Positions 1,408-26,332 of a stretch of 64,000 nt of DNA are shown one piece after another. The stretch spans positions 372,001 to 436,000 of the forward strand of contig NZ_JAPDIA010000001.1 in assembly GCF_029525575.1 (NCBI RefSeq), written 5' to 3'. How positions within the stretch are numbered: position 1 is the stretch's first letter; the number at the start of each line of letters is the position of its first letter. The notes below the pieces were generated by a model. The model did no database searches. It was not told the DNA's origin and worked only from the letters and a program-made list of their open reading frames with translations. Origin of the DNA: Cohnella rhizosphaerae. GTDB lineage: Bacteria > Bacillota > Bacilli > Paenibacillales > Paenibacillaceae. A program made the translations under genes and the position numbers.

Positions 1408-1413
1408 TGCGGA

Positions 1414-3825: not shown

Positions 3826-3838
3826 CGAACGCGAAAAG

Positions 3839-4294: not shown

Positions 4295-4339
4295 TTCAAC
4301 ATCTCCTTTTCCTCCGGATAAAGCCCCGATGCGCGCGCC

Positions 4340-4998
4340 CTATTTGCCCTCTTCTTTTCTCTGTTCGGAGAGATGGTTGTCGAGACCGCCCTTCCGAACC
4401 TTGTCGACCGCCTCGCGCCCGCTGCGCGCGCCGAGTTTTTTTGAGAATTTTGTTCACCTGGTTTTTGAGCGTGCTCTCGGACTTGTACAGCTTGCGCTCG
4501 ATCTGCGCATGCGTGCAGCCTTCCTCCAGCAGCTCGTACACCTCCCGCTCGGCGGCGGTCAGCGGCTGCAGCTGCTCCTCCCGCCGAAGCCGCCTCAGCT
4601 CCTTCAAAAGTGCCTCCATCGCCTCGGGATGATGGTAGACGCCGCGAATCGCCTGGGGGGAGCTCCTTGAACCGGGACTTGTCCAGGTAGTGCAGCGCGC
4701 CGGCCGCGAAGGCGTCCGTCATCGTGCGCTCGGACGCGTCCGACGTCAGCATGACGATGCGGACCGGACGAAGCTCCGCCAAAGCGAGCGCGGTAAAGAT
4801 GCCGTCGCGGCCGGCCTCGGTCAGATGAACGTCCAGCAGCGCCACGTCGAATTCGATCGAAGCGGCCAAGCGCAGCGCCTCCTCCGGCGTCGACGCCGTG
4901 CCGACGACCAGCAAGTCTTCCTCCCGGTTCAAATAAACGCTCATCGACTTGACCCAATCCGGATCGTCCTCGACGAGCAGCAGACGAATCGGCTTCAT
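4340..4998 (-). CDS. LuxR-type response regulator (two frameshifts)
   Basis: Restored length about 218 residues. The receiver domain starts MKPIRLLLVEDDPDW, has the phosphoacceptor Asp in DVALLDVHL, and the Lys near YLDKSRFKEL. The LuxR-type helix-turn-helix is LTAAEREVYELLEEG with STLKNQVNKIL. Two runs break the frame: six G at 4655-4660 and seven T at 4436-4442. Each is one base too long, and removing one base from each gives a continuous protein ending HLSEQRKEEGK. The start overlaps the kinase gene stop by 4 bp. It is the cognate regulator of the kinase at 4995-6335; its targets are unknown. Confidence 0.85.
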
Positions 4999-6335: not shown

Positions 6336-6547
6336 GAAGTCTCCTCACTCGGCTTGACGCCCGGCGCGTTTCCTGGTTGGAAGCGCGCCGCTCGCCTGGG
6401 AAGCGTTCTTGCAACCGTCAGGCTATCTTACCTCCGATTATACGCGAAGCGCGCCCGTTCCTCTAGCGTCGAAATGTACCAGGACGATGCGACACGATGC
6501 GCCGGATCGAGGAACAGCGTCGATTCGCCGGCCTCCCTGCCGCCTTC

Positions 6548-8096: not shown

Positions 8097-8185
8097 CCCT
8101 TAAGACAGCCTCCTTCGGGTAACGAATGGTAACAGCCGTTCTTCCTCAATCTATGCACGACCGACATGCGAAAGGAGCGTCTCCC

Positions 8186-9109
8186 ATGAATATCGGTTCG
8201 ACGCTGTACCGCAAAGCGATGACGGCCGTCGCGGCCAACCGCGCGGTCAAGCGGCTGACGCTTCGGTACGGACGCAAGCTGGCCCGCCGCTTCGTCGCGA
8301 GCGACCATCTGCAAGGCGCGCTGCGCGAGGTGGCGGCGCTCAATCGCCAGGGCATATCGGCTACGATGGACGCGCTCGGCGAAGGCATCGGCAGTCTGGA
8401 AGAGGCGCGCGCCTACAGGGACGAATACTTGAAGCTGCTCGACGCGATCGCCGATTCCGGCGTCCGCGCCAACGTCTCGCTGAAGCCGACGCAGATGGGA
8501 CTCGCCCTTGACGCCGAAGCCTGCATCGCACATATTCGCGAGATCGCCGTCCGGGCGAGGCAGTACGGCAATTTCGTGCGGATCGATATGGAAGATTCCC
8601 CCTATACGCAGGCGACGATCGACATGACCGTCCGGCTGCACCGGGCGGGACTGACCAACGTGGGCACCGTGCTGCAGGCGTATCTGAAGCGGACCGTGGG
8701 GGATGCGCGGGACTTGATCGAAGCCGGCGTGCCGTTAAGGCTCGTTAAAGGGGCTTACCGCGAGCCGGCCGCCATCGCTTTTGAGCGGAAGGCCGACGTT
8801 CTCGCAAGCTTCAGAAGCATCGTGAAGCTGCACTTGGACCGCGGCGCGTACACGGCGATCGCGTCGCACGACGACGCGATCGTCGGCTGGACCAAGCAGT
8901 ATGCGCGGCAGAACGGAATCGCGAAGGATCGGTTCGAGTTTCAGATGCTGTACGGACTCCGGATGTCCGAACAGGCGCGCCTCGCCAAGGAGGGCTATCG
9001 CGTGCGCTGCTACGTGCCCTACGGCACGATGTGGTACCCTTACTACACGCGCCGTCTGGCGGAGAAGCCGGGCAATTTGTGGCTGGTCGCGAAGCATCTG
9101 CTGCGGTGA
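8186..9109 (+). CDS. Proline dehydrogenase (FAD-dependent)
   Basis: 307 residues. Oxidises proline to P5C on a flavin barrel and passes electrons to the membrane. Conserved family segments are NVSLKPTQMG, VRIDMEDSPYT, LRLVKGAYREP, ASHDD and the C-terminal RCYVPYG...YYTRRLAEKPGN. The ATG at 8186 is chosen because AAAGGAG sits at 8171-8177; a longer frame from 8126 lacks a site. Paired divergently with the P5C dehydrogenase gene, it completes proline-to-glutamate conversion. Confidence 0.93.
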   Translation: MNIGSTLYRKAMTAVAANRAVKRLTLRYGRKLARRFVASDHLQGALREVAALNRQGISATMDALGEGIGSLEEARAYRDEYLKLLDAIADSGVRANVSLKPTQMGLALDAEACIAHIREIAVRARQYGNFVRIDMEDSPYTQATIDMTVRLHRAGLTNVGTVLQAYLKRTVGDARDLIEAGVPLRLVKGAYREPAAIAFERKADVLASFRSIVKLHLDRGAYTAIASHDDAIVGWTKQYARQNGIAKDRFEFQMLYGLRMSEQARLAKEGYRVRCYVPYGTMWYPYYTRRLAEKPGNLWLVAKHLLR

Positions 9110-9143
9110 ATGGGGACTGCTGCGGGCGGGGCGACGGCAATGG

Positions 9144-9207
9144 GCGTTCGGACGTTCGGGCGTTCGGACATTCAGGCGTTCGGACGTTCAGGCGTTCGGA
9201 CGTCCGT
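9144..9207. repeat. Four 16-bp tandem repeats
   Basis: Units begin at 9144, 9160, 9176 and 9192, with consensus GCGTTCGGACGTTCAG; each copy has a few changes. They lie between the proline dehydrogenase stop and the convergent AraC-type gene. No terminator T run accompanies them. Confidence 0.75.
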
Positions 9208-9239
9208 TCGGGGGGGCGTTCGGGGCTTGCGAAACGCCC

Positions 9240-10988
9240 TCAGCCCTCTCTGTAAGCGGTCGGCGTGCGGCCGGTACGCTGCTTGAACATCGACGCGAAG
9301 TATTTCTGATTCGGCAGTCCGCACATGGACGCGACATCGCGGATTTTGAGCGTGGTCTTACGAAGCAGGAATTTGGCTCTCGCGATCCGCAGATCCGTGA
9401 CATAGTCGGACAGATTCACGCCCGTCTCCCGCTTGAAAACGTCGGACAAATACTTCGGATGCAAATAAACTTCGCCGGCGAGATACCTCAGCGAGACGTC
9501 CCGTTCGAGCGACTGCGCGATCAGCGCCTTGACGTGCCGGATAAGCAGGCGCTCCCTGCCGGCGTCGTCTCCTTCGGCAGGCTCGCGCAGACTCGGGCGA
9601 TCGCCGGGCTCGCCGTCCGCCGACAGCCGGATCAACTCGCCCCCCCTCCTCAGCCTCAGCTCGACGGCGGTCGGCCCTCCCGTCAGTCGGAGCCGCAGGA
9701 AGACCAGCTCGTCCAGAATGATTTTGGCTGCCGCGCCTTCCGAGCAGAATTCGACTTCGCATCCGCTCAGATCGTCCCAATAAGCGAGCCCGAACGGCAT
9801 CGGCGGCGCATGGCCGATCTCGAAGGTCATGACGATGCGGTCTGCCGTCTTTTCATAGCCGCGTACGAACACCTGCGGTCCCCGGGCATCGAACGTATCG
9901 TCGTGCATGCCGGTCCTGCCCACGTAGCTGCGCAGGCGGCGAGGTGCGCATTCTCCGTCCGCGAATGCCAGCTGGCAGTCCTTGTCGTAGTATAGAAACG
10001 TTTTCGGCCACGGTCCCGCCGCCGTCCCGCCCAGCGTCACTGTATATTCGTTTGTCTGCGGCCGTCCGCCGGCATCTCTCGCGAGCATGTAAGAAGGCGC
10101 AGTCTCGGCGTTGGCTCCGCCGTACATCCCGATCGCGCGAGGCACGGTCGTCAGCGTGACGGAGCAGCTCGCGACGTAAGCGAAAAAGAGATCCAGCATG
10201 CCAGCGCACGCCTCGACATGCTCGGCAGGAAATACGGCGAACCGTTCGGTAAACTCCATTTCGTGCGCCTCCTGCTGCTGCAGGAAAAACACCTGATCGT
10301 TGTGCGCCGTATTTTCCAGATAGACGTCGAACAGGCGCTTCCAATATTCCACGTTCCCGCCGTCGCAGAGGCCCGCCCGCAGCACGTCGTTCGGATCCGT
10401 CGAATAAATAACCGGACAGCCCGAGTGGAAGGTTGCGTTCAGATCGCGGACCGTCCATTCGCAGGCGACGATCCTCCCCTTGCCGGGGTGCGGCGCCTTG
10501 TAGCGAGCGGGATCGACATACCATGAGCCCCACGGAATGCCGTTGTGCGTAATGCCGTCCCACCATACCTGCTCCCAGCAATAACCCCACATGCCGCTGA
10601 AATCCAGCTCCTCGAGCGCTTCAATCACTTCGTTATAAATCTTGCCGCGCGCCGCGACCTTGGTGCGGACCCAGGGGAACGCCTCGCGCACGATACGCCA
10701 GTCTTCCTCCAGCCGCCGCTTGAACGCTTCCTTGTCGGCCCCCGCATCCTCGATAAAAAACGGCGTTTGCAAAATGACATCGTCCCCGAATTCGGCGTGC
10801 CAGGCGGCGATCCGCTCCCGAAGGACCGGCACGGACCGGCCATTGACGATCCAGGTGACCGGGATGCCGTGCTTGTGCGCCAGCGCGGCCGTCCGGTCGA
10901 TGCCATCTACGGCGACCCCATGACCCCAAGGCGTATCGTAGTGCGCGGCGTAGCTGACGAATGTGTAAATCAGGTTTTGCGGTTTCAC
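9240..10988 (-). CDS. AraC-type regulator with N-terminal deacetylase-like barrel
   Basis: 582 residues. The C-terminal 110 residues are a clear AraC double helix-turn-helix (LRYLAGEVYLHPKYLSDVFK, then IRDVASMCGLPNQKYFASMF). The N-terminal 280 residues resemble a polysaccharide-deacetylase/GH57-like (beta/alpha) barrel (IDRTAALAHKHGIPVTWIVN), with a beta-rich middle part. The likely start is GTG at 10988 behind AAGGAGG; the ATG two bases earlier leads straight to a stop. Because of a frameshift in the upstream binding-protein gene, the two appear as one long open frame, which is an artefact. As last gene of the transporter operon it may be a cytoplasmic oligosaccharide sensor. Confidence 0.8.
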   Translation of the reverse strand: MKPQNLIYTFVSYAAHYDTPWGHGVAVDGIDRTAALAHKHGIPVTWIVNGRSVPVLRERIAAWHAEFGDDVILQTPFFIEDAGADKEAFKRRLEEDWRIVREAFPWVRTKVAARGKIYNEVIEALEELDFSGMWGYCWEQVWWDGITHNGIPWGSWYVDPARYKAPHPGKGRIVACEWTVRDLNATFHSGCPVIYSTDPNDVLRAGLCDGGNVEYWKRLFDVYLENTAHNDQVFFLQQQEAHEMEFTERFAVFPAEHVEACAGMLDLFFAYVASCSVTLTTVPRAIGMYGGANAETAPSYMLARDAGGRPQTNEYTVTLGGTAAGPWPKTFLYYDKDCQLAFADGECAPRRLRSYVGRTGMHDDTFDARGPQVFVRGYEKTADRIVMTFEIGHAPPMPFGLAYWDDLSGCEVEFCSEGAAAKIILDELVFLRLRLTGGPTAVELRLRRGGELIRLSADGEPGDRPSLREPAEGDDAGRERLLIRHVKALIAQSLERDVSLRYLAGEVYLHPKYLSDVFKRETGVNLSDYVTDLRIARAKFLLRKTTLKIRDVASMCGLPNQKYFASMFKQRTGRTPTAYREG

Positions 10989-11101
10989 ATGCGTTTCCTC
11001 CTTGCGGCGAATGATGTTTTTTCCCTCAACGGACGGACAGAGCGTCCCGGGATTCGGGCGCTCTGCCGCTTCATGCCTTTCGCGTCTAAGCGGGACGCGG
11101 C

Positions 11102-12720
11102 TTACTTTTTTGTTTTCCGCACGCCAGGCGTCGATTTGCTTTTGCAGCTCGGCCTGGACCTTCTCGATGCCTGCGCTCTTCAGCTTGGCGTTGCGTTCGT
11201 CGAGCAGCTTTTCCGGATTTTTGACGGCGCCGGTAAAGATCGACTGATACTCGGTAACGACGGCGGTCATTTGCGTGATCTCGTTTTTCACGTTCGTCTC
11301 GTCGAAGACGAAACCCATGAGCGGGAAGCGCTTCGCTTCGTTGTTGAACTTCTCCCAGCTCGTATACAGATCGTCGGGCTGGCCGGGCTTCAGGTAGTTC
11401 AGCAGTTGGTTGCCGACGACCCACGACGTGCCGGGGTTGTAGCCGCTGTCGGCGATCGGCTCGATGCGGTTGTCGCCGACCTTTTTTATAGTGCTTGTCT
11501 TCGATGCCGTTGACGAACAGATTGATGACGTACGGATCGGTGTGCAGGTCGTTGAGCACCATCATCGCGCGGTCCGGATCCTTGGACGTGCGGGAGATCG
11601 CGAACATCGAGCCTGCGGCCAGATCCGTCGTGACGATCGGCTCTTCGACGACGTGGGACACGTAGTCGTACTTGCTGTCGGTGCCGAGCTTCATCTCGAT
11701 GTCGGCGCCCGGCTTCCAGGTCGCGGCCTGCACCCAGATCTTGCCTTCCTTTTGCAGGTCGTTGACGGTCGTCGTGCTCGTCGCCGCGTCGGCGTTGATA
11801 TAACCCTTTTCGTAAAAGCTGCGGAACAGGCCGACCTCCTGCTTGTTGATGTCCACGATCTCGGGATCGAGCACCGACTTGACCTTCATCTCGTCGGACG
11901 ATTTGTAGTCGAGCAGGAACATCGGCGTCTTCGCCGGCGCCGGGCCGATCGGCCGGTAGTTGCCGCGCGTCTCGTACATCATGAAGCCGCCGCCGAAGTT
12001 GCCGGAGCCGCCGGATACATAATAAGGAATGATGCCGGGCTCGCCGGCCTTGACCTTCGCCATCCAGGGCTCGAGGTCCGCCATCGTATTGATGCTGTCG
12101 ATCGGAATCTGGTACTTGTCGACGATGTCCTTACGGTAGGTGAGCGCCTTGCCCTGCGTGATCTCCTTGTTCGTCGGAATCGCGTACAGCTTGCCTTTAA
12201 GGCGCGGCGCCTCGAGATAGAGCGGGTTCAGCCGGTCCTTGATGCCCTGTCCGTACTTCGCGAGCAAATCGTCCAGCTCGATGAAGGCGCCCTTGGAAAC
12301 GTTGCCGAAGAAATTCAGCCAGGAAGCCGTGAAGACGAGGTCCATCTTTTCCCCGGTATTCATCATCAGCTCGGTGCGGTTCTTGTAGTCGCTCGAGGCG
12401 ATCGGCTGCAGCTTGACCGTCGCGTTGATCTTTTCCTTGAAATACGCGTTCAGCTTCGCCTCGACGAGCGCGTCGTCCGGCTGCGGCTTGCCGAAGTATA
12501 CGATCGACACCTCGTAAGGCGCGAGCTCGCTCGGCGCTGCGCTCTCGGACGGAGACGCGCTCGCCGAAGCGGATGCGCTGCTCGTCGCGGCGGAGCTTGC
12601 CGGAGGCGAGGAAGCCTCTTTGTCGTTGCCGCTGCCGCCGGCGCAAGCCTGCAGCATCGAGGCGAAGGCGAAGACGAGCGCCAATGCCGGAACGTGCTTT
12701 TTCGTTTTTTTCATGCTCAT
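11102..12720 (-). CDS. Extracellular sugar-binding lipoprotein of an ABC importer (two frameshifts)
   Basis: Restored length about 538 residues. A lipoprotein signal (ALALVFAFASMLQAC) is followed by a Ser/Ala linker and a large LplA-type (family 1) solute-binding domain starting YEVSIVYFGKPQPDD. Two six-base runs (11482-11487 and 11106-11111) are each one base too long. After correction the protein continues from HYKK into VGDNRIEPIADSGYNP and stops at 11102. It follows two permease genes and lacks an ATPase neighbour; such importers usually share an MsmK-type ATPase. It presumably delivers oligosaccharides made by the nearby GH9/PL8 enzymes. Confidence 0.88.
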
Positions 12721-12830
12721 TGCGCGTAACCCTCCTGATATTTAATACAGATTATATAGATCGGCCTGGATTCGGCATAGCGAGCTTGCCTGCGGCCGGG
12801 ACTACCGATAGGGATGCTGCGGACATCGGA

Positions 12831-13744
12831 TCAGCCTTTGACGGCGCCGATCGTAAGCCCTTTCACGAAGTATTTTTGAAAAAAGGGATACACGAGCAGG
12901 ATCGGACCCATGCCGACGACCGCCATCGCCATTTGCAGCGACTCGTTCGGAAGATCTCGCATCAGCTCCGGATTTTGCGCCGCCAGCTGCACGTTTTCCC
13001 GCAAATACTGGATGTCGTTGAGCACGCGGATCATGAGGAACTGTACGGGGTACTTGTCTTCCGCCCGGATGAACAGCAGCGCGTTGAACCAGTCGTTCCA
13101 GAACAGGATCGTGCTGAACAGCGCCATCGTCGCCATGACCGGGAGCGAGAGCGGCAGAACGATCCGGATGAAGATCCGCAGCTCCCCCCGCGCCGTCGAT
13201 TCTGGCCGACTCGATGAGGGCGGGATGAATCGTCGTCTGGAAAAAGGTTCGCATGATGATGACGTTAAACGGGACGATGAGCAGCGGAAGCATAAGCGAC
13301 AGATAGTTGTCCAGCAGCCCGAGTCCCTGCGTGAACACGATGTACTTGCTCACGATGCCGCCGCTGAACAGCATCGTGAAAAACAAAAAAGAAGGTGAAA
13401 AACGGACGCAGCGGATAGTCCTGGCGGGAGATTGGGTAGGCGTACAGCGCCATCAGCAGCACGCTGAGCAAGGTGCCTGCGGCTGTGATGCCGACGCTGA
13501 CGCCGTAAGCGCGCAAGATCGTGCCGTAATCCTTGAACAGGCTCTCATAGGCGATGAGCGACCACTTGGCGGGGAAAAAGCTGTAGCCCCGGCTCAGCAA
13601 GGAATCGTTGTGCGTGAACGAAACGACGATGACCAGGACGACGGGCAGCACGCAGGCCAGCGCCAAGACGATGAAGCCGCCGTTCAGTGCGAAGTTGGTG
13701 AGCGGCGAGATCGTATTCTCGCGGCGGCTCGCGGTTTTCAGCAT
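12831..13744 (-). CDS. Carbohydrate ABC permease, YtcP/LplC type (two frameshifts)
   Basis: Restored length about 303 residues with six membrane helices. The permease loop (EAA-like) reads ESARIDGAGELRIFIRIVLP once one base is removed from the six C's at 13184-13189. A second correction at the six A's at 13385-13390 joins PFFTFFLFFTMLFSGG. The end KYFVKGLTIGAVKG is typical of this permease class. The ATG at 13744 follows GAGGTGA. It partners the LplB-type permease 27 bp upstream. Confidence 0.9.
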
Positions 13745-13770
13745 AGCTAAAGTTCACCTCGGAATTTTTA

Positions 13771-14697
13771 CTAGAAGAGGGCTTGATCCTTGTCGATCTT
13801 GCGTACCGACGCGTTGGTCAGCAGCACGAGCGCGAAGCCGAGCACGGATTGGACGAGCGCCGCCGCGGACGACATGCCGATGTCGTTAAGCTCCTTCAGC
13901 GCGCGATAGACGTAGGTATCGACCGTGTCGGTGACCGGGTAGAGCGGCCCCGAATTCATCGGCACCTGGTAGAAAAGGCCGAAGTCGGAGTTGAACACAT
14001 GGCCCATGTTCAGGATCGTGATAATGATGATGACCGGCCGGATCGTGGGCAGCGTGATGTGGAAAATCTGCCGCCACTTCGACGCGCCGTCGATAACGGC
14101 GGCCTCGTAATACTCGGGATCGATGCCCGCGATGGCCGCGATGTAGATGACGGCGCCGATGCCGACGCCTTTCCAGGCGCTGACGATCGTCAGGATGTAG
14201 GGCCAGTACGCCGTCTCCGAGTACCAGAAGACGCGCTCCATGCCCAGCCATTCGACGACCGTGTGGTTGAGCAGGCCTTTCTCCGGATTGAGGAATCCGT
14301 ATACGAGATAGCTCACGACGACCATAGAGAGGAAGTACGGCATGATCAGGAAGGTCTGATAGGTTTTCGCCAACAAGCGGCTGCGGATCTCGTTGATCGC
14401 GACGGCGATCGCCACGGACAGCAGCAGGTTAACGATCATGAAGACGAGGCTGTACGACACCGTATTGCGCGCGATCCGCCAGATCGAGCCCGAGGTGAAC
14501 AGGAACTCGAAGTTGTCTATGCCGACCCACGGGCTTTTCCAGATGCCGTCGATATAGTTGATGTTCTTGAAGGCGATGAACACGCCGAACATCGGCAGGT
14601 AATTGTTCAGGACGAGCACCGCCAGGGCGGGCACCATCATCAAGGTCAGATACCTGTACTTCCAAAAGAGCTTCCATCGTGCGTGCAACGGCGTCAC
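13771..14697 (-). CDS. Carbohydrate ABC permease, LplB type
   Basis: 308 residues, six predicted membrane helices, opening KLFWKYRYLTLMMVPALAVL. The EAA loop for ATPase contact is YYEAAVIDGASKWRQIFHIT. The frame is intact. The GTG at 14697 lies only about one base from AAGGA, so the TTG at 14688, better spaced, is the more likely start. It is the first gene of the operon LplB, YtcP, binding protein, AraC fusion. A 51-bp tandem array lies upstream. Confidence 0.92.
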   Translation of the reverse strand: MTPLHARWKLFWKYRYLTLMMVPALAVLVLNNYLPMFGVFIAFKNINYIDGIWKSPWVGIDNFEFLFTSGSIWRIARNTVSYSLVFMIVNLLLSVAIAVAINEIRSRLLAKTYQTFLIMPYFLSMVVVSYLVYGFLNPEKGLLNHTVVEWLGMERVFWYSETAYWPYILTIVSAWKGVGIGAVIYIAAIAGIDPEYYEAAVIDGASKWRQIFHITLPTIRPVIIIITILNMGHVFNSDFGLFYQVPMNSGPLYPVTDTVDTYVYRALKELNDIGMSSAAALVQSVLGFALVLLTNASVRKIDKDQALF

Positions 14698-14819
14698 ATC
14701 CTTTCTGTGACTTCAGTATAGAATGGGGGGGCCGCGGCGGGCGATGATGTATTCCTGTCAGAGTGTGATGTAAAATGAGGTGCCTGTCGGGGAGCGGATC
14801 AGCGAAAATACAGACTGGC

Positions 14820-15295
14820 GGTTGGGGGGCGGGCGCGCTGTGGGTGCGCGTTCGTTGTTTCTGGATGGGACTTGTTTAGCGAGGTTTGGGGCGGGCGCGC
14901 GCTCGTTGTTCCTGGATGGGACTTGTTGGTGAAGTTGGGGGGCGGGCGCGCGCTTGTTGTTCCTGGATGGGACTTGTTTGGTGAAGTCAGGTGTGGGCGC
15001 GCGCTCGTTGTTTCTGGATGGGACTTGTTTGGCGAGGTTGGGGGCGGGCGCGCGCTTGTTGTTCCTGGATGGGACTTGTTTAGCGAGGTTGGGGACGGGC
15101 GCGCGCTTGTTGTTCCCGGATGGGACTTGTTTAGCGAGGTTGGGGGCGGGCGCGCGCTCGTTGTTCCTGGATGGGACTTGTTTAGCGAAGTTGGGAGCGG
15201 GCGCGCGCTTGTTGTTCCCGGATGGGACTTGTTTGGCGAGGTTGGGGGGCGGGCGCGCGCTTGTTGTTCCTGGATGGGACTTGTTTGGTTGGTCC
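14820..15295. repeat. Nine-copy 51-bp tandem array
   Basis: The core CTGGATGGGACTTG (or CCGGATGGG...) recurs at 14861, 14912, 14963, 15014, 15065, 15116, 15167, 15218 and 15270: seven steps of exactly 51 and one of 52. Each unit also holds a GC-rich half with GGGCGGGCGCGCGC. As 51 is a multiple of three and the unit lacks stops in some frames, long open frames with a 17-residue period appear on both strands; I do not call these genes. It fills the gap between the transporter operon and the sensor kinase. Confidence 0.95.
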
Positions 15296-15380
15296 GGTAA
15301 AGGAGGACGCGCCACGATGAATAGGTCCGCTGTTGAACTTCTTTCTTTGGCGGAACGTCCGATGGCGTCCTCCGCTCCCG

Positions 15381-17117
15381 CTAATCGTTCCCGGCCCGCG
15401 CCGGAATCGTGACGACCGCACGCAGTCCGTTCCCCTCGGGACGCTCGTAGCTCAGTCCGTAGGCTTCGCCGAAGTGAAGCCGCACGCGCTCGTGCACATT
15501 CCGGATGCCGTAGCCCTTGTCACGCTCCTCGCCGCTCAGGATACGGTCCAGCCGCTCCATGTCCACCGGCAGGAAGCCGTTATCCTCCACCTCCAGCCGG
15601 ATGTCGTCTCCGACCCTCCGCGCGCGGATGACGATCAGTCCCTCGCCGTCCATGCTGCTCACGCTGTGAAAGATCGCGTTTTCCACGAGCGGCTGAAGAA
15701 TGACCTTGGGCGACATGAAGGACATCGCTCCTTCATCCACCTCCCAGCGCGCCTCGAACGTGTCCGGATACCGCTTCATCTGCAGCCGGCAGTAGGCCTG
15801 CGCATGCTCGAGCTCCTCGCCGATCGGGATCTCCGTCTTGCCCTTGCTGAGGCCGATCCGCAGCAGCTTGGACAAATCCTTGACCATGTCGCCGACGCCG
15901 GAATTGCCGCTGTCGAGCGCGTACCAGTAGATCGAGTCCAGCGTGTTGTACAGCAAATGGGGCGTAATTTGCGAATGAAGCGCGGCGAGCTCGTTTTCCC
16001 GCTGCTGAATCTTGATGACGTAGTTTTCCTCGATCGAGCGGTCCAGCCGGTCCGTCATCTTCAGGAAGGCGCCGTAAAGAATGCCGAACTCGTCGCCGCG
16101 CAGCAAGCCTTCGTCGGCCTCCAGCCGCTTGCCCGGCTCGTAGATCCGCGTGATCTTCGTCAGACGGACGAGCGGACGCACGACGATCCGCAGCAAATAA
16201 AGGACGAAGGCGAACACGCACAGCAGGTAAATCGCCGAGGCGGCCATGATGATCCATTGAAAGGCGGTCCGCCTGTCGGCGACGGCCCCCAGCGGGATCT
16301 GGTAGACCAACCGGGTGCCGAACGCGGAGCGTCTGGAAAAAGCGTAAAGCAGCTCCTCGCCGCCGCGCTTGTCATAAAAGTAGCCTTCCGTCTCGCCCCT
16401 CAGCCGATCGGGCATCCCTCTCATATCGAGCGGCTCTTCTCCGACCCGGATGAGCTGCTCGCCCGAATCGTTGAACAGATAGATGCCCGCATCGTCCGCC
16501 AGTCCGACCGAGACGAGATCGCGCTTAAGCAGCGCCTCCAGCTTCGACACGACCAGGAAACCGAGCGTGTCGTCGTACGCTTTCGGATTCAGTACGGCGC
16601 GGACGAGGCTGACGGTAGGCGCGCCGCCGTCCGTCGACAACGGGAGCAGCGTCGCCCCGCCCTTCTCCTTCAGCGCGCGTGCGGCCCAATCCGGCAGCGC
16701 GGCCGTATCCCAGGTTATATACTTGAAGCCGCGGGTTTTGTTGGACAGGTCGAACGGCGCGCTTTTCCCCTCCTTGTTCGTCATATAAAGGGAATATTCC
16801 GTGCCGTCGGACGACCATCGTTCCAGGACGGCGTCCGCTTCCCGCATTTGGCCCAGCGTCTCGATGTTGGTCCAGAACCGGTATTGCCCGTCGTCGCTGA
16901 AAAAGTGGGTATCCAGCAAGGTGACGGTTTTGTCGCTGACGGCGGACAGCGTCTTCTCCAGCGTGACGTGGTTTTGATTGACGAGCTGAAGCGTCGTAAG
17001 ACCGACCTCGCCGCGCATCGAGTCGGACGCCTTGTAAGCGGAGATCCAGCCGACGACGAGGAAGGGACAGACGATGAACAGCGCAAAAGCGATCGCGACT
17101 TTATATTTGAGCTTCAG
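15381..17117 (-). CDS. YesM-type sensor histidine kinase
   Basis: About 578 residues. An N-terminal membrane helix (KVAIAFALFIVCPFLVVGW), a large extracellular sensor region (about residues 40-280), a second helix (IIMAASAIYLLCVFAFVLYL), a HAMP-like linker, and a His_kinase domain with the phospho-His in ALHSQITPHLLYNTLD. The ATPase part has LQPLVENAIFH and GYGIRNVHERV. The first ATG in frame (17018) would cut off the first helix. Upstream coding continues in frame to a CTG at 17117 behind AGGGGAG, overlapping the regulator stop, so initiation there or a small sequence error is likely. It pairs with the regulator at 17114-18761. Confidence 0.9.
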   Translation of the reverse strand: MKLKYKVAIAFALFIVCPFLVVGWISAYKASDSMRGEVGLTTLQLVNQNHVTLEKTLSAVSDKTVTLLDTHFFSDDGQYRFWTNIETLGQMREADAVLERWSSDGTEYSLYMTNKEGKSAPFDLSNKTRGFKYITWDTAALPDWAARALKEKGGATLLPLSTDGGAPTVSLVRAVLNPKAYDDTLGFLVVSKLEALLKRDLVSVGLADDAGIYLFNDSGEQLIRVGEEPLDMRGMPDRLRGETEGYFYDKRGGEELLYAFSRRSAFGTRLVYQIPLGAVADRRTAFQWIIMAASAIYLLCVFAFVLYLLRIVVRPLVRLTKITRIYEPGKRLEADEGLLRGDEFGILYGAFLKMTDRLDRSIEENYVIKIQQRENELAALHSQITPHLLYNTLDSIYWYALDSGNSGVGDMVKDLSKLLRIGLSKGKTEIPIGEELEHAQAYCRLQMKRYPDTFEARWEVDEGAMSFMSPKVILQPLVENAIFHSVSSMDGEGLIVIRARRVGDDIRLEVEDNGFLPVDMERLDRILSGEERDKGYGIRNVHERVRLHFGEAYGLSYERPEGNGLRAVVTIPARAGND

Positions 17118-18761
17118 CCGTCGCTCCCCTGCCTTTCCTTGCGGTACTCCGCCGGACTTGATCCCGCGTACCGCTTGAACATCCGCCCGAAGTGCTCAGG
17201 CGATTCGTAGCCCACCGCATACGCGATCTCGTAGCGCTTTTTATCCGTCGTCTCGAGCATGCGCTTCGCTTCTTCGATTCGGAGCTCGGTGACGAAGTCC
17301 CACAGATTTTTCCCCGTCTCCCGCTTGAACAAGTAACTCAGATAAGCCGTGCTGAAATGGACCTCGCTCGCGATATCCTGAATCTTGAGCGCCGGATCGC
17401 GATAGCGTTCCCGGACGAAGCCGGCGATGCGCGCGAGAATGGAGCGGTCCCGTTCTTGCGTCAACTGCCCGAGCATCGCGGATATCTCTGGGATGTAGCC
17501 GGCGAGCGCCGTCAGCTTGCCTGCCGCGTCCAAGCCGCGGAAGTAAGCGTCCGGATCGAACCGCTGAAGCGAAATCCCGTTCGCCCGGCCTTGCTCGAGC
17601 AGCAAGCCGTAAAGCCGGTACGCCAGCATGCCGAAGTAGCTGTTGAACATCTCCGCTTCGTCCTGAAGTCCGACGAGCGCCTGCAGCAGCGCCGCCCCGG
17701 TTCCAGTCGGTCCGTTCTCTCCTCCGCCTGCCTTAAGCGACTGGGCAAAGGCATCCACCTGCGCGATCCAGGCGGCGATGCCGAGATTTTCCCGCGCCTT
17801 GCGGTCCTCGAAGTAGAACACGCGCTGTCCGGGATTCATATGCCGCCATTCCGCGGCGGCGTTCGCTTCGTCCATGAGCTTCGGCAGCATGAACACGTCC
17901 GCGTGAAGCGAGCTGATGCCTACCGTCGTCTCGACGTTCAAGTAGCTTTTCAGATTCATATGAATCATCTGTCCGATCAGGTGAAGCTGCGACGCGATGC
18001 CCGCGCCTCCCTCCTGCGGCTTCGGTTCGCCTATCCGAAGAATGGCGACGATCTCGTTGCCGTATCCGCTTAGCGAGAGTCCGCGCCATTCGCCCAGGCT
18101 TTCGTTCAATATATTGATGGAGGCATACTTGAGCAGCTTGCGACCTTGCAGCGCGATCTCTCTGTCGCTGAACCCCCCCGCGGCTGAGATCCGGCCGGAT
18201 CGAGACGACGCCGAACAGGCCCGCCGCCTCCTGCCCGCCAAGCAGTGCGGCCAATGCTTCGCCGTCCTTTGCTGGCAAATCGCCTTCGGTGACGAGCGCC
18301 GCGAGCAGCTCGCTCAAACCCGGCTGGCCCGCCTTCCCTGCGCCACCGCGCTGCGTCTCGGTCATTGCCAGCGACCGGCGGCCGATTGCCTCGTTCTCGC
18401 GCAGCACGCTGCCGACGACCCGAAGCAGGTCGTCGCGCTCGACCGGCTTGACGAGATAGTCCCGCGCGCCGAGCCGCAGCGATTTTTTGGCGAAGTCGAA
18501 CTTCTCGTGCGCCGAGATGACGATGACCGGCAGATGAGGCTGCTCCATGTAGATCGTCTCCATCAGCTCGATGCCGCTCATGCGGCTCATCTGAATATCC
18601 GTCAGGATCAGGTCGAACGTCTCCATCCGCAAGTAATCGATCGCTTCGAAGCCGTTCAGCGCCGTCTCCACATGCGCGATGTTCAGCTCCGAGCCGAGCA
18701 GGAAATTTTTGATGCCCGTGCTCACTCTCGGCTCGTCGTCGACGACCAGTATTTTGTGCAT
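17114..18761 (-). CDS. YesN/AraC-type response regulator (frameshift)
   Basis: Restored length about 548 residues. The receiver domain starts MHKILVVDDEPRVSTG, with phospho-Asp in DLILTDIQMSRMSG and Lys in DYLVKPVERDD. A long middle region follows, then a C-terminal AraC helix-turn-helix pair (IQDIASEVHFSTAYLSYLFK; YEIAYAVGYESPEHFGRMFK). The frame breaks at seven C's (18173-18179); one base fewer joins RPDLSRGGFSDREIALQ. With the adjacent YesM-type kinase it probably controls the carbohydrate genes on either side. Confidence 0.9.
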
Positions 18762-18994
18762 GTCCGCAGCCTCCTCGCTGTCCGCGCCGTCTCGTCCGCA
18801 TCGGACGATACTCCCGTCAGGTCTAGCCTAAGCCAGGACGCGGCGGCTGTCGATGATCTTTTTCTCGAAAGTCGTGACGTAAAATCATGCGCGAATAAAT
18901 CACAAGCGGGCGAGATTACATCCTCGTGCGCGTCGCGCGCCATGATTACGATAGCTTTGTAAGCGATTGCACAATAAGAATGGAGGCCTCGTTA

Positions 18995-21900
18995 ATGATC
19001 AGCTTGAAGTGGAACAAAGGTAAGGGCAGAAAATCGTTTGCCGGCTTGCTGAGCCTGGCGCTCCTGCTCGGACTGCTCGCGCCCCTCGGCGCCGCCTCGG
19101 CAGCCATCGCGCCGCTGCCGGGTCCGGGCAATCCGCTGCTGTACGACGATTTCGGCGGTGGCGGGCTGTACAAGCAGAACTGGACGAACTGGTACAACCA
19201 GAGCGGCGGCACCGGCGCTTTTTCCAAGGTCACGGTCGATTCGCGGCAAGTCGGCAAGTTCGCGCAGACGCCGAGCACCGGCGCCTCCTGGGCGAAGTTC
19301 CAGCCGATGAACGAGTCCGTCGACCTGACGGGCTACCGCTATCTGAACGTCACGATGAAAAATCCGGGCTACGCCGACTCGCTCATCCGGGTGGCGGTCA
19401 ACGACGGGACGGCCAACTACAATCTGACGGGCGGATGGGTCTCCGTCCCGACGGATTGGACGACGCGACGATACGATCTCGACACGCTCGCGCCCGCGCT
19501 CAAGAAAAAGACGGCCAAGCTGGAGATCTGGCTGCGCCAGTCGGGCGGCGCCTACGGCGAGACGCTCATCGACGAGATCTTCGCCTCTACGGACGAGAGC
19601 GGCGCCGCCCCGACGCTGACCGGCAGCATGAGCGCCAACTCGGCGACCTATACGCAAAACACCGCGTTCACCTTCCTCGCGACGTATACGGACGCCGATA
19701 ATGAAAAGCCGTTCGCCATGCAGCTCGTCGTCGACGATACCGCCTACGACATGCTCGAGTCCGACAGCGGCGATACGACCTATACAGACGGCAAAGACTA
19801 TTATTTCATCACGAAGCTTCCCGCAGGATCGCATTCGCACTTTTTCCGCGCAGGCGACCTGACCTCGGACGAGGTTCGCACGCCCGTGCAGGCGGCGCCG
19901 GTCGTCGCGGCATCGAGCGAAGCGCTTGACGTGGTCGTCAGCCAGGCCGGCTACAATGCCGGCGGGTTCAAAGACGCCCAGGTCGTGTCGACGAGCCCGC
20001 TGTCCGATCTGTCCTATCAGGTAAAGGACGGCGGCGGAACCGTGGCGGCCTCCGGCACGATGGCGTACAAGGGCTTTTACTGGAACCGGCACGTGTATGC
20101 GATCGACTTTTCCGCGGTTTCCGCCGCAGGCGAAGGCTATACGATCGTCACGAACGGCATCGCTTCCTATCCGTTCCCGATCAAAGCCAACGTCTGGGGC
20201 GACTACAAGGACGAGATGACGGCATTCTACCGGCTGCTGAGAGCGGGCGTAGCGACGGAGGACGCATATCCGGCGGGCTATAGCACCGTCGCGCCTTCGG
20301 CCAAGCTGTATCATGAAGCCGGTCATCTGGACGACGCCGCGTCGATCGACGGCTCGACGCATTACGATCTGACGGGCGGCTGGTACGACGCGGGCGACTA
20401 CGGCAAGTACGCCGGCAACCAATGGGTTGCCGCCGAGATCGCGCTCGCGTACGTCCGCCATGCGGACGCCCTTGCCGTCAAATACGACAACGACGCGAAC
20501 GGCATCCCCGATCTCGTCGACGAAGCGGTCTTCGGCAGCGAATACCTGATCAAATGGGCCGATCAATTCGGCGGCGAGCTGTACGACATCAAAAATAACG
20601 CCTCCTTCGTGCATCCCGAGAAATCGACGGACAACGTCGGCGGCAACGCCGACGACCGCCGGATCAGCGGGCTCGGCGTCGGCGGCTCCGCCAAAGCGGC
20701 AGGCGCGCTGGCGGCGACGGCGCGCGCGATCCAAACGGCGATCGCGCAAGGCGACGTCGACGCCGCGAAGATTGCGACGCTTGAAGATTTTGCCGACGAT
20801 TGCCTGGCAGCCGCGATCGTATTCTACGACTATGTCGTCGCCCACCCGGACGGCGTCGTCGGCTCCTACTCGACGCGCGGCGGCATCCCGAATTCGAAGC
20901 TGCTCGCGGACGTGGAGCTCTACCTGCTGACCGGCGATGCCGACTACAAGGACGCGGCGACGGCCAACATCGGCACGCTGACGTTCGCCGATCTGTCGTC
21001 CACCAACTATTGGGATATGCGGCCGATGTCGCTTGCGGAGTTCTATCCCGTTGCCGATGCCGCAACGAAAACGCATATCCAGCAACTGCTGAAGCAGCAG
21101 GTCGACTTCTTTTTGTCATCGGCGGACGATACGCCGTACGGCGTGCTGAACCAGTTCAAAAACTTCGGCGTCAACGAACCGCATGCCTCCTACCTTGGCG
21201 ACATGATGCGCTACTACGAGCTGTTCGGCGATCCTGCCGCGCTGCGCGCCGTAGAGAAAGGTCTTTACTGGATCTTCGGCGAAAACCCGTGGAACATCAG
21301 CTGGGTGTCCGGCATCGGCGCCGACTTCGTCACCTATCCGCATACCCGTTACGACGAAGGGGCGAACGGCAACGCGAACAATCCCGGCATCGTCTTCCCC
21401 GGCGCGATGGTGAGCGGTCCCAATATGAAAGACACGAAAGACAAAACCAGCGTCAGCCCGTGGTACGAGGATCGTTCGCTCTACGCGGACGATACGAACC
21501 AATGGCGCTACAACGAGTTCAGCATCAGCATCCAGGCGGGACTGCTGTACACGATCATGAGCCTCGGCTCGGACCCGGCGGCCAGCTCCGCCGGTGCCGC
21601 GTCGCCGCAGCGGCTGCCGACGCTATCGCCCGTCATCGGCGATTACGTGCGCGGCAATGTCACCGTGCTCGCGGGTCCCGCGACCGGATTAAGCGACCTG
21701 TCCTTCTCGACGTCCGGCCAAAGCGGACCGTACGTCCCGATGTCCGTCTCGGGCGCCGTGTATGCGGCTTCGATCGACGAGAGCGCTTCGGCGCCCTACG
21801 CCAACAAGCGGGTCGACGTTAGAGGCAAGGACGCCGCGGGCAATTATACGTACAGCTCGACGCATTACACGGTCGCGGCGCCGCTGCCCGATCCTTCGCA

Positions 21901-23216
21901 CCCGCTTCTGTACGACGATTTCGGGGGCGGGGGGGCTATGGGGCTCGACCGGCGGCAACAACGAGTGGGTGAATTGGTATACGCAGAACGGCGGCACGGC
22001 GACTTTCGCCAGGACGACCGCCGACGGGCGCACGGCCGGCCTGTTCACGCAGACGCCGACGGCGACCAACTCGTACGCCAAGTTCCAGCCGTGGCACGAC
22101 TTCGTCGACCTGTCCGGTTATCGCTTTTTGAACTTCACGGTAAAAAATCCCGGCTACGCGAATCTGCGCATGAAAATAGAGCTGAACGACGGCACGCGCA
22201 CTTATAACCTGACGGGCGGCTGGGCGGCTGTGCCGACGTCCTGGACCGACCTTCAGATCAATCTCGATGCCCTGTCTCCCGCCGTAAACAAGAAGAAAAC
22301 GACGATGGCGATCTGGCTGAACCAGACGGCCGTCGGCTACGGCGAGCTGCTCGTGGACGAGATCAAGGCGACCAACGTCGCGAGCGGCTCCGCGCCGACG
22401 CTGACTGCGGGCGGCGTAAACCATGCATCCGGCGACACGGATACGGACTATACGTTCAGCGTGACTTATACGGACGCGGACAACGAGAAGCCGTTCGCGA
22501 TGGAGCTCGTCCTGGACGGCGTCGTGCATGCGATGACGGCGGTCGATGCCGGCGATACGACGTATACGGACGGCAAAGCGTACGCGTATACGACCAAGCT
22601 TCCGCCCGGCGTTCATTCGTACTATTTTCATACGACGGATACGACGAGAGACGCGGTGAGCAGCGCGATCCAGTCTGGTCCCGCCGTCAGCGGCTCGCTG
22701 CTGGCCGACGACTTCGAAGACGGCAACGCGGACGGCTGGACGCCGACGAGCGGCGCCTGGTCGGTGCAAGCCGGCCGGTACGCCGGCCAGGCGGGCAGCG
22801 GCAACAGCTTCTCCGTGGCGGGCGATTCGGCCTGGACCGACTATACGCTCCAGGCCGACGTCAGCGTGACGAACAATACCGGCGGCAACAAGGACGCGGG
22901 ACTCCTGTTCCGCTATGTCGACAGCGATAATTACTACATGCTGTACGTCAAAAACAACGATCGCACCGGTCGCAAACTGGAGCTTGTGAAGTCGGTCGGC
23001 GGCGTAAAAACGACGCTCGGGTACGCGAATCCGAGCGTGGCCGCGGATACGTTCTATATCTACAAGATCGTGGCGGACGGATCGAGCCTTTCGGTCTACC
23101 AGAACGGCGTGCCCCAGTTCGCGGTCGCGGACGGCGCGCTCTCGTCCGGCCGAATCGGAGCGCGGGTGTACGCGAACACCAAAGCCTATTTCGACAATGT
23201 CACCGTTACGCGATAA
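18995..23216 (+). CDS. Secreted multimodular GH9 glycoside hydrolase, xanthanase-like (frameshift)
   Basis: Restored length about 1406 residues. Signal peptide (cleavage near GAASA, residue 36); carbohydrate-binding module I (about 45-200); beta-sandwich linker (205-300); Ig-like plus GH9 catalytic domain (310-860); linker; second copies of the module and linker; C-terminal LamG-like domain (LLADDFEDGNADGW onward). Catalytic residues: D465/D468 in WYDAGDYGKY and E841 in RYNEFSISIQ. Seven G's at 21929-21935 break the frame; one fewer restores DDFGGGGLWGSTGG. The ATG at 18995 follows GGAGG (18982). The architecture resembles Paenibacillus endo-xanthanases with CBM84; the substrate is inferred. 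Confidence 0.88.
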
Positions 23217-23229
23217 CGAACTGAAGCAA

Positions 23230-23265
23230 GGAGCCGGCAGTTCGCCGGCTCCTGTTCTATTCTTT
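23230..23265 (+). terminator. Intrinsic terminator after GH9
   Basis: Perfect 9-bp stem GGAGCCGGC / GCCGGCTCC around AGTTC, followed by TGTTCTATTCTTT, 13 bp past the GH9 stop. Confidence 0.85.
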
Positions 23266-23279
23266 GACGCGCTCCGGGC

Positions 23280-23474
23280 CTAGCCGACGGCCACGAACTT
23301 GACCGCGTCGGCGACGACGTAACCGTCGGGAGACCCGAGCGCGTCGTTGCGGATCGTGACGCTGCCGCCCGATCCGGCCAAAAATTCGTATGTCCCGATC
23401 GAATGCCAGACCCCGCCGCCCGAACGCTGATCGACCGCCGTGCGCGTCGTCCCCGATGCATGGCCGACATCGAC
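23280..23474 (-). pseudogene. C-terminal remainder of the PL8 gene beyond an in-frame TAG
   Basis: Straight after the TAG at 23477-23475 the same frame continues for 64 codons (VDVGHASGTTRTAVDQ ... GYVVADAVKFVAVG) to a TAG at 23282-23280. This is the second half of the golvesin-type beta-sandwich begun before the stop (VIVDNADSAGVTRTGTW). So the lyase gene carries a nonsense change, or a base-call error, in its last domain. CAG or another sense codon would restore the protein. It has no start of its own. Confidence 0.75.
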
Positions 23475-26105
23475 CTACACCGCATCCTCCCGATTAAAAT
23501 GGGCCGGCCACATCAGATACACCTCATATGAGCCGGCGATCGGCAGATTCGGCGTAAAAGTCACGCTTTTCGTTCCTTTGCCGGCGTTGTCGTCATGCAA
23601 ATAATTCGCGCCGTAACGGTCCGTCTGCGTGCTGGCAGTTTTCCACGTCCCCGTCCTGGTCACGCCCGCCGAATCGGCATTGTCCACGATGACGGACGGC
23701 AGTTCGGGCTCTCCCGGATCGACCGGTCCGCTCGTATCTTCGCCCAGCTGGAACGACGCGTGAAACGATTTGCCCTTCGCGCCGTTCACGTTAACGGTGA
23801 ATTTGATCGTCGGAGCGAGCTGCGTGACCGTAATGCCCGGATCCGCGCTGTAGCCCTCGGCCGAGCGCGCCAGTTCGATCGCGATGGTGCCGTTGTTCGC
23901 TTGCGTCGGATCGGACACCGACGCCTCGAGGCGCTCGTCCGCGATCTCGCGGGTCATCACCGACGCCTTTTTGTTCGACGTGATCAGATCGGCCGTCTGC
24001 GTCGTATCCGTCCAGAAGTTCGCGCCGACCAGTCCGAGCGTTTTTTCCTTGACCGACTGTACGCCGCTCGTATTGGCGACGATCTCGATCGCGGGATCGG
24101 CGGCGTAGGCGCCGACCTGCGCGCTCGTCTTGTTCGGCAGCAGCACATACCCGTACGACGCACCCGAAGGATTCGTGCCGTGGTCGATCCACATCGTCTC
24201 GTAGTTGCGCGTGACGGCGGTAGAGGGCGTGGCCGGGCGATTGTTGATCTGCTTCCAGGTACCCGTGCGCGCTTCCCGCTTCGTCTGCAGCGTCGCGCCT
24301 CCAGGAAAGTAGTAGCCGATGTCCGAGCCGTCGGCGGTATTGCCCGCCAGGTGCACCCAATTGACGCCGGTCAGCGTCTGCGCGACGCCCAGACCGGTGG
24401 ACAGCGCCGCTCCGTTCGCCGTCCAGGCATTGTCGCCGGCCCCGTTCAGCTTGCGATTGTCGACGACCGTCTCGATCGGGATGCCTGCCGTGCTGGATAT
24501 GCCTGATCCGAGCGCGACGATCTCGTCGTCGAACATGAACCAGGATTTGCGCGCGGTCAGATTGTAAGCGCCGTAGGAGAGATCCATGCCACTGGCGCCG
24601 TACTGTCCCGCAAGCGATACGCCGCCCGTCCAGCTCGACGTGCCGGTCCCGCTCGCGATCGGCGTCCCAGAGGCGACCGTCGTCCCCGGGATCCGGTAGG
24701 CATCCACGGTCGGCCAATAGTCCTCGCTGTATTGCGCAAGGTCCTGATTGTACAGATAGGTCGCGCCCGCTCCCGTATACCAGCCCCGCCCGTTCTCGCT
24801 ATTGATCGATTCGTAGCTGCTGATCCGCGTCGAATACAAGGCGAGTCCCAGAGCGAAACCGGGCCGCTGCAGGACGGCCCGGTCCATCGCAGCGTACTGC
24901 TTGTAAAGATTCGGCGCCGCGGCGGGCGCTATGGACGGATCGTCAACGATCGCCTTGGCAAGGCGGATCGTGTCGGTCGATACGTCGCCGTAGAAGCTGC
25001 TGAACGTATCTTCCTGAATCACGCGCTTCGCAATCTGTTTGAAGGCGGCTGCATGCGGCGCCGGCGCGAACTGGGCAAGCCGCACGATGCTCGCGACGAT
25101 GCCGTGCCCGACCGCATGATCCTGCGCGTAGCTGCGGGAAATCTCCCGTCCGCGCACCATGTCCATCATCGCGCCCTTGTACAGCAGCGGCCGATAGGCT
25201 TCGTAGATCCACTGCCAAACGTTGCTCTGGTTCGGATCGGATACCGACCAGGTAGAGCCCGACAGCAAGTACATCAGGTTGGCCGTCGTTTCCAGCACGG
25301 AGCTGCCGTATCCGCCGGTATAGGCGAAAGTGGTATGCTGGACGAAGGAGCCGTCCGCATAGAAGCCATCTCCGCCCGTCGCGTACGGGAATATGCCTGT
25401 GCCGGACAAGCCGTTGCGCGCCGCGGCCAGCTTGACCGCGTCCTTGACGATGACCGCGCGCACGCCGACGACGATCGCCTGCCACGCCCGGTTCGCGCCC
25501 GTGAGTCCGATCGAAGGCGTAAAATAATCGATGGTGTCCATATAGGTCGCCATCCGCGCTGCGCTTATATCGTCGTACAGCAGCACCGCGATGTCGTTCA
25601 GGCTCATCGGGATGCCGAGCTGCCAATGCCACCAGTTGTAAGCGGAGCGGCTTCGCGTGCTGTTGTAGCTGTTGACGTACAGCCAGTCGAGCGCATCCAG
25701 AATGTCTTCCTTGAGGTCCGCGTTGCCGTAAAGGCTGGAGCCGACGGTCGTCGCCGCCAAAGCCATCGTCCGCAGACGCTCGTAAACCGCGTTTACATTG
25801 TCCGAAGTGCCGTTGCCGCGGAGCGCGTACCAGATGTACGTGCGCGAAGAGGACAAGTCCATGTCTTCCCAATAGTCGTTCGCATCTTGGGCAAGCTTGT
25901 CCGTCCGCGCTGCGATATCCGAATCCGCCGGATCCAGCGCCGGGCCTCCGGTCAGCAGCGTCGCCCACTTGATTCGAAGCGCGTCGAATTCATCCGATGC
26001 GTGCGCAATGTCCGGCTGCCAGCCTCCCCACAGCGTCATCAGCAGCGCAGCGATCAGGATGCCCGACAGCATGCCCTTCAACCTTTTTCTCCAGCTTCCG
26101 CTCAT
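23475..26105 (-). CDS. Secreted polysaccharide lyase family 8 (xanthan/hyaluronate-lyase type), truncated at the last domain
   Basis: 876 residues to the TAG (941 if read through). Signal peptide MSGSWRKRLKGML...AHA; alpha/alpha-barrel catalytic domain to about residue 380, then beta-sandwich domains and a split golvesin-like C-terminus. The likely catalytic triad is N205 (GANRAWQ), H257 (FVQHTTF) and Y266 (GGYGSS), whose spacing matches that known for Bacillus xanthan lyase. The ATG at 26105 is preferred (GAGG seven bases upstream) over 26129, which has no site. Convergent with GH9. PL8 also includes chondroitin and hyaluronate lyases; the GH9 neighbour favours xanthan. Confidence 0.88.
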   Translation of the reverse strand: MSGSWRKRLKGMLSGILIAALLMTLWGGWQPDIAHASDEFDALRIKWATLLTGGPALDPADSDIAARTDKLAQDANDYWEDMDLSSSRTYIWYALRGNGTSDNVNAVYERLRTMALAATTVGSSLYGNADLKEDILDALDWLYVNSYNSTRSRSAYNWWHWQLGIPMSLNDIAVLLYDDISAARMATYMDTIDYFTPSIGLTGANRAWQAIVVGVRAVIVKDAVKLAAARNGLSGTGIFPYATGGDGFYADGSFVQHTTFAYTGGYGSSVLETTANLMYLLSGSTWSVSDPNQSNVWQWIYEAYRPLLYKGAMMDMVRGREISRSYAQDHAVGHGIVASIVRLAQFAPAPHAAAFKQIAKRVIQEDTFSSFYGDVSTDTIRLAKAIVDDPSIAPAAAPNLYKQYAAMDRAVLQRPGFALGLALYSTRISSYESINSENGRGWYTGAGATYLYNQDLAQYSEDYWPTVDAYRIPGTTVASGTPIASGTGTSSWTGGVSLAGQYGASGMDLSYGAYNLTARKSWFMFDDEIVALGSGISSTAGIPIETVVDNRKLNGAGDNAWTANGAALSTGLGVAQTLTGVNWVHLAGNTADGSDIGYYFPGGATLQTKREARTGTWKQINNRPATPSTAVTRNYETMWIDHGTNPSGASYGYVLLPNKTSAQVGAYAADPAIEIVANTSGVQSVKEKTLGLVGANFWTDTTQTADLITSNKKASVMTREIADERLEASVSDPTQANNGTIAIELARSAEGYSADPGITVTQLAPTIKFTVNVNGAKGKSFHASFQLGEDTSGPVDPGEPELPSVIVDNADSAGVTRTGTWKTASTQTDRYGANYLHDDNAGKGTKSVTFTPNLPIAGSYEVYLMWPAHFNREDAV

Positions 26106-26130
26106 TAACATTCCTCGTTTCTTCATCATT

Positions 26131-26144
26131 TAAAAGCGCTTTCA
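26131..26144 (-). promoter_or_regulatory. cre site (CcpA) upstream of the PL8 gene
   Basis: Minus strand TGAAAGCGCTTTTA differs at one base from the consensus palindrome TGAAAGCGCTTTCA. A possible promoter (TTGCGC, then GATAAT after 18 bp) lies just upstream, so bound CcpA would block early transcription. This implies repression of the lyase when preferred sugars are present. Confidence 0.75.
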
Positions 26145-26332
26145 TTTATTATCATAACGAATATGTACATCGCGCAAAATGCCGGAGAATCCAGAAAAGG
26201 TTCGATCTATCCATGAAAAACGGGAAGAAGCGGATGCATCGCCGCTTCCTCCCGTTATGCTTCGCTATTGAACGTATGACGAGCTTGAACGGAACGGGTA
26301 CTGCCGCGCTTAGCGTGGATGAAAGACCGGTC

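Follow-up and report, generated by a model that had tools for sequence, protein, structure and literature searches.

Genes and predicted enzymes of the locus

The stretch analysed here, referred to as the window, comprises 64,000 nucleotides of the Cohnella rhizosphaerae genome (contig C4:372001-436000; GC content 61%), which is assembled as 8.5 Mb in nine contigs with a completeness of 91.5%. Between positions 9240 and 26145 it harbours a putative xanthan-utilisation locus, in which the genes for a GH9-family enzyme and a PL8-family lyase accompany those for a sugar importer, a two-component pair and a protein of about 450 residues from an unnamed family. In a search with the PL8 gene, which possibly left out the window's own record, the nearest named relatives were Cohnella sp. 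OV330 and Cohnella sp. GbtcB17 (87 and 86%, respectively, for the best segment).

The GH9 gene (18995..23216, forward strand) lies in two frames, the open reading frames (ORFs) 18926-22207 and 21762-23216, and encodes a secreted enzyme with a duplicated module, as the original prediction stated. Compared with the sequences of the Protein Data Bank (PDB), the enzyme reaches 1082 bits with 6FHJ, against 96 bits for the next GH9, an endoglucanase. We take 6FHJ, which the PDB table names only 'protein', to be the xanthanase of Paenibacillus nanensis, and among characterised enzymes the window GH9 thus groups with a xanthanase entry and not with cellulases. The modules before and behind its catalytic domain both match one segment of 6FHJ, and the two copies are also alike at the DNA level. 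Its C-terminal domain matches 3keto-disac_hyd of Pfam, in agreement with the CBM66-like module described for the tested xanthanase CspXan9, and, as judged via the alignment to 6FHJ, its accessory modules are arranged as in that enzyme (PMC11002231). Its first 950 residues share 93% identity with the OV330 GH9 (L148), which the same paper lists as the best match for CspXan9 (PMC11002231, Table 1). The window GH9 is therefore a predicted endo-xanthanase.

As for the PL8 gene (23475..26129, reverse strand), its product matches Lyase_8_N, Lyase_8 and Lyase_8_C of Pfam, and a C-terminal Golvesin_C domain, whole in OV330, is interrupted by a frame break. Four PDB sequences named xanthan lyase (2E22, 1J0M, 2E24 and 1X1H), presumably all from Bacillus sp. 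GL1, score 1676-1680 bits against it, the Paenibacillus xanthan lyase 6F2P 903 bits and other PL8 chains at most 384 bits. Only 2 of the 752 residues aligned with the crystallised lyase 2E22 differ, and the chain of that structure starts just past the signal-peptide-like beginning of the window protein. By its sequence, the window PL8 would be a xanthan lyase, nearer to xanthan than to hyaluronate or chondroitin lyases, and the gap between 1680 and 384 bits led us to reject a specificity for hyaluronate or chondroitin. The genome contains two further PL8 matches, L002 on contig C8, which shares 43% identity with the xanthan lyase across 424 residues, and L003 on contig C7.

Both PL8 and GH9 comprise enzymes of differing specificity, and the nearest NCBIfam models for the two proteins, the hyaluronate lyase HylB and a cellobiosidase, match with scores well short of the respective cut-offs. 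One might thus argue that the locus serves hyaluronate, chondroitin or cellulose and that the likeness to xanthan enzymes is incidental. The score gaps of both enzymes speak against this idea, as does the presence in the same genome of the unsaturated glucuronyl hydrolase (UGL) of the xanthan pathway, described below, and we regard it as extremely improbable. The candidate xanthan locus of the original prediction was thus borne out by the two sequence comparisons.

The remaining genes lie on the reverse strand. The YesN-type response regulator (17114..18761, two frames; Response_reg receiver and HTH_18 helix-turn-helix domains) and the YesM-type histidine kinase (15381..17018; His_kinase, HATPase_c) make up the anticipated two-component pair. 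The predicted importer is present as well, with an LplB-type permease (13771..14697; BPD_transp_1), a YtcP-type permease (12802..13744, two frames) and an extracellular solute-binding protein (SBP; 10989..12720, two frames; SBP_bac_8 and DUF3502). Neither YtcP piece has a Pfam match of its own; both were identified by alignment to permeases of relatives, one of which matches BPD_transp_1. The SBP, whole in L131, consists here of a piece at 11086-12720 and a DUF3502 tail with which the ORF 9240-11318 opens. The same ORF contains the ~450-residue protein (9639..10988), with a likely GTG start at 10988 and no visible signal peptide, and an AraC-type helix-turn-helix segment (9240..9638; HTH_18 and HTH_AraC). 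The importer and sensor genes keep the same order in relatives.

Broken frames and the AraC-type segment

The frames of SBP, YtcP, YesN, GH9 and PL8 are broken in this assembly. Their OV330 counterparts are single ORFs, of 1080 residues for PL8, 1429 for GH9 and 548 for YesN. Comparison with GbtcB17 places the breaks of SBP, YtcP, YesN and GH9 at homopolymer runs, that of PL8 not being resolved there; runs of at least six bases number 18 in the locus and 7 in the GbtcB17 stretch. Adjoining pieces of one family match are also seen elsewhere in the genome. We take the breaks to be assembly errors, the alternative being decay. Elsewhere in the window, an 885-residue ORF (56972-59629) matches GerA and then GerAC, and possibly represents two spore-germination genes joined by a frame break.

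The 692-residue ORF 9240-11318 was originally predicted to be an AraC fusion, an idea that did not hold. It begins with the DUF3502 tail of the binding protein, continues with the ~450-residue protein, which is a gene of its own in relatives, and ends with the helix-turn-helix segment, so that three genes are read as one open frame. The counterpart of the last segment is a separate gene of 250 codons after the ~450-residue protein gene in OV330 and an overlapping ORF in GbtcB17. Reading the ORF as a genuine AraC regulator with a new sensor domain would account for the frame being open from 9240 to 11318, for the helix-turn-helix at its end and for the small AraC-type gene found at this place in both relatives. 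Nevertheless, the ORF opens with the tail of the binding protein, the homologues align up to about residue 450 and mostly lie in frames of about 450-530 residues, and the join is located at a homopolymer run in an assembly rich in such breaks. We consider such a regulator very unlikely.

A conserved protein of about 450 residues

Searches with the ~450-residue protein yielded one stray match below the cut-off in Pfam (HTH_25, E 0.033), none in NCBIfam and, with a 24-row profile, no PDB sequence at E<=10; a profile comparison with GH38 revealed no likeness. A CE4/NodB deacetylase was considered and rejected. There is no Pfam match to that family, an hhalign comparison with seven sequences, drawn from eleven NodB loci, gave a P of 0.015 and a probability of 2.9, and the metal motifs of these enzymes, TFDDG and H-x-x-x-H, are absent from the protein. 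Among the invariant residues of the 24-row alignment are E126, D144, E177, D182, D198, E240, H242 and E243, together with many Trp.

Among 394 genomes of the bacterial family, 22 encode the protein, at 26 places (partial in G278 and at one place in G024), as do 13 of the 19 genomes behind 20 named loci chosen from the 79 found via the PL8 gene. Beyond the family, the one match among 398 class-wide genomes was the window's own, and no stretch of the viral contigs matched its peptide patterns. Xanthanase-like GH9 matches (E<=1e-100) were found in 36 of the same 394 genomes, 18 of which have both proteins. GH9 is thus present in 18 of the 22 carriers and in 18 of the 372 other genomes (Fisher P 1e-17, relatedness not corrected for). 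Within the genus of the window, 8 of 11 carriers of the ~450-residue protein have both, and three GH9 carriers are without it.

Its surroundings were compared at 24 of the 26 places, including the window and one place pieced together from two stretches (G010). The orthologous SBP gene is directly upstream in 20 of the 24, the exceptions being L137, L139, L140 and L142; all five genes from YesN to SBP are present in 18, and GH9 diverges beside YesN in 11. The gene that follows codes for a UGL, a GH38 enzyme, a GDSL esterase or a GH2 enzyme in 12 places, and none of these kinds was seen in that position in the other 12. It is a UGL in five (L134, L135, L137, L139 and L140), GH38 then GDSL in two (L132 and L141), GDSL in four (L143, L144, L206 and L207, with a 101-residue ORF between in L207) and GH2 in one (L138). 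In L137 (G250), three consecutive GH76 genes (16733-19899) lie a few kilobases behind the genes of the ~450-residue protein and UGL. The window's genome encodes a second copy, about 50% identical, at 9255-10574 of L142 (G000:C5:1350000-1369900). This copy is not accompanied by the orthologous importer; a GH88-like gene is some 6 kb away, and a YesN-type receiver and a histidine kinase are encoded close by.

Most likely, the ~450-residue protein performs one more intracellular step on xanthan oligosaccharides, such as the removal of acetyl or pyruvate or the cutting of one glycosidic bond. That it is, with such a step, the first described member of a new carbohydrate-active enzyme family strikes us as an even bet. 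It could instead bind sugars as an accessory to the importer or to the two-component pair. Its position directly after the importer genes in 20 of the 24 contexts would fit that role, as would the many invariant Trp and Tyr residues and the lack of a match to any catalytic family. The genes for pathway enzymes that follow it in half of the contexts point the other way, and in L137, L139 and L140 it stands beside UGL without the orthologous binding protein. The invariant acidic residues and His would, moreover, suit catalysis. An accessory function is thus conceivable, though we lean against it.

Published secretome data on Cohnella sp. 56 may bear on this protein. The proteins unique to xanthan medium in that strain include a hypothetical protein (05265), a binding protein (05266) and a permease (05267), alongside the GH9 enzyme (05272), the xanthan lyase (02663) and a protein whose best match is the alpha-mannosidase of GL1 (04681); 05266 and 05267, both encoded close to 05272, were up 11-fold and 2.1-fold on xanthan (PMC11002231). 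By the order of the identifiers, 05265 should be the ~450-residue protein; it is listed without discussion in the accessible text of that paper. More generally, in the accessible text of the published accounts examined, supplementary files aside, the family is neither named nor discussed.

Pathway enzymes, control sites and known systems

In the original prediction, a complete pathway needed genes from elsewhere or a new step. Both missing enzyme types, GH88 and GH38, are encoded on another contig of the same genome, and therefore no new step is needed for them. Of 15 PF07470 matches, some of which are pieces of one gene, the one at C6:747962-748978 is the UGL. It agrees with 1VD5, presumably the UGL of Bacillus sp. 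GL1, at 342 of 343 residues; the sole difference is the residue of the start codon, and the first 34 residues of the structure lie outside that frame. The strongest PF07470 match, L004, was rejected as the pathway UGL, its best PDB match being YteR. Among 15 GH38 matches, split genes included, the alpha-mannosidase at C6:375438-378422 is 63% identical to the GH38 that neighbours the ~450-residue protein gene in another genome. Its open frame, at 7610-12013 of L204 (G000:C6:366500-386400), also contains a LacI-type regulator directly before it, probably two genes joined by a frame break. The UGL gene belongs to a second sugar locus (L203, G000:C6:738500-758400; 1157-10476), whose other genes encode a DUF4432 protein, another YesM/YesN-LplB-YtcP-SBP set and a GDSL esterase with a broken frame, a candidate for the pathway deacetylase. 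Candidate beta-glucosidases are 11 GH3 matches in the genome and the GH1 enzyme of the window, confirmed at 45075-46502; none is tied to the pathway. The manA gene also attributed to the window was not found among those of its ORFs that were scanned.

Scans with a catabolite-responsive element (cre) pattern found one perfect match in the window, a palindrome at 18957..18971 (forward strand) that lies 23 bases ahead of the start of GH9. Another palindrome, with one mismatch, directly precedes PL8 at 26131..26145 (reverse strand). With up to one mismatch, the window has 13 matches against 10.4 expected, a number reached in 31 of 100 shuffles and hence not above chance; it is the position and conservation of the sites, not their count, that carry weight. 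Of 37 distinct regions upstream of GH9 homologues (the window's own included, duplicates dropped, 3 not scorable), 27 have a perfect palindrome, 7 have one with a single mismatch and 3 have none, whereas 18 of 5000 random 230-base pieces contain a perfect match. Upstream of PL8 homologues of at least 50% identity (21 regions with the window's own, 2 not scorable, some starts approximate), no palindrome is perfect, 7 have one mismatch and 14 regions have none. Of the cre control originally ascribed to the lyase, the cre-like site itself is confirmed, with its one mismatch.

Such sites at promoters are, by their sequence pattern, a feature of the CcpA regulon, and on a plain reading CcpA would be the regulator that acts on the palindromes. 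Alternatively, the GH9 palindrome might be the operator of a pathway-specific LacI-family regulator. The operators of that family share central-CG palindromes of this sort, and a LacI-type regulator directly precedes the GH38 gene in the genome. Nevertheless, the cre pattern fits perfectly in 27 of the 37 GH9 upstream regions, and no perfect match occurs in the 20-kb stretches around UGL (L203) and GH38 (L204), where a pathway regulator should act; we find this alternative rather unlikely. The YesN-GH9 intergenic region (18762-18950) has long stretches unchanged in five relatives; as this conservation exceeds one palindrome, further operator sites are likely.

Several known systems resemble this locus; the comparisons reflect the accessible parts of the cited accounts. 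CspXan9 of Cohnella sp. 56 VKM B-36720 is also a GH9 enzyme with extra N-terminal modules and a C-terminal CBM66-like module, and a binding protein and a permease are encoded near it, with the hypothetical 05265 numbered beside the binding protein. In contrast, the identifier of its lyase is distant (02663 versus 05272), and adjacency to GH9 is not established (PMC11002231). Paenibacillus taichungensis I5 likewise groups GH9 and PL8 with importers and two-component pairs, but its 35-kb cluster also contains two PL8, two GH88, GH38 and GH92 genes (PMC12827396), whereas the intracellular enzymes lie elsewhere in the Cohnella genome. Microbacterium sp. XT11 and Paenarthrobacter ilicis 6C share GH9, PL8 and sugar transporters; they are actinobacterial, with GH38 and GH3 inside the cluster (PMC10881899, PMC12772297), and LacI-type regulators are named for P. 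ilicis 6C (PMC12772297). The likeness to Bacillus sp. GL1 extends to the enzymes themselves, with two differences in 752 residues of the lyase, one in 343 of the UGL and the same five-enzyme logic. For GL1, knowledge of the genes comes from biochemistry and single clones; those described here have a genomic setting that includes the importer, the sensors and the ~450-residue protein. A review considers deacetylation in the GL1 pathway to be 'likely' carried out by an esterase (PMC10881899).

PL8 and UGL are nearly identical to 2E22 and 1VD5, and GH38 is encoded in the same genome, so that this Cohnella is probably Bacillus sp. GL1 or a close twin of it. We propose, with a probability of roughly 0.93, that the locus of this organism is a Gram-positive one for xanthan utilisation. 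The identity of the enzymes by sequence, the gene order and the conservation of the cassette and of the palindromes are direct observations. Some points weigh against the proposal. The origins of 6FHJ, of the four lyase structures and of 1VD5 are presumed; the locus itself lacks UGL, GH38 and beta-glucosidase; the PL8 upstream regions are without perfect palindromes; the ~450-residue protein occurs without GH9 in 4 of 22 genomes (G016, G019, G020 and G350), and 18 of 36 GH9 carriers lack it. If the frame breaks were real, the locus would be dead. Its reach is also limited in that we infer the enzyme activities in the strain, the induction, the binding regulator and the role of the ~450-residue protein.

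In the proposed scheme, PL8 would remove the terminal mannose of xanthan side chains outside the cell, and GH9 would cut the glucan backbone into oligosaccharides, to be taken up by the SBP/LplB/YtcP importer. YesM/YesN might sense these oligosaccharides and switch on the cluster, and CcpA or another LacI-family protein would act at the palindromes that precede GH9 and PL8. Within the cell, UGL, the GH38 alpha-mannosidase, an esterase and a beta-glucosidase, all encoded elsewhere, would complete the breakdown, to which the ~450-residue protein may add one more step.

The classical xanthan enzymes can now be placed in a genome, where the genes for lyase and xanthanase lie together with those for an importer and a sensor pair of their own, and the intracellular enzymes of the pathway sit apart. 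Deacetylation and the handling of pyruvylated mannose are not tied to a GL1 gene in the accessible parts of the published accounts examined, and the present genome offers two candidates for these steps, the ~450-residue protein and the GDSL esterase beside UGL. The locus itself is well founded and of a known kind; the conserved ~450-residue protein may be its one new part.

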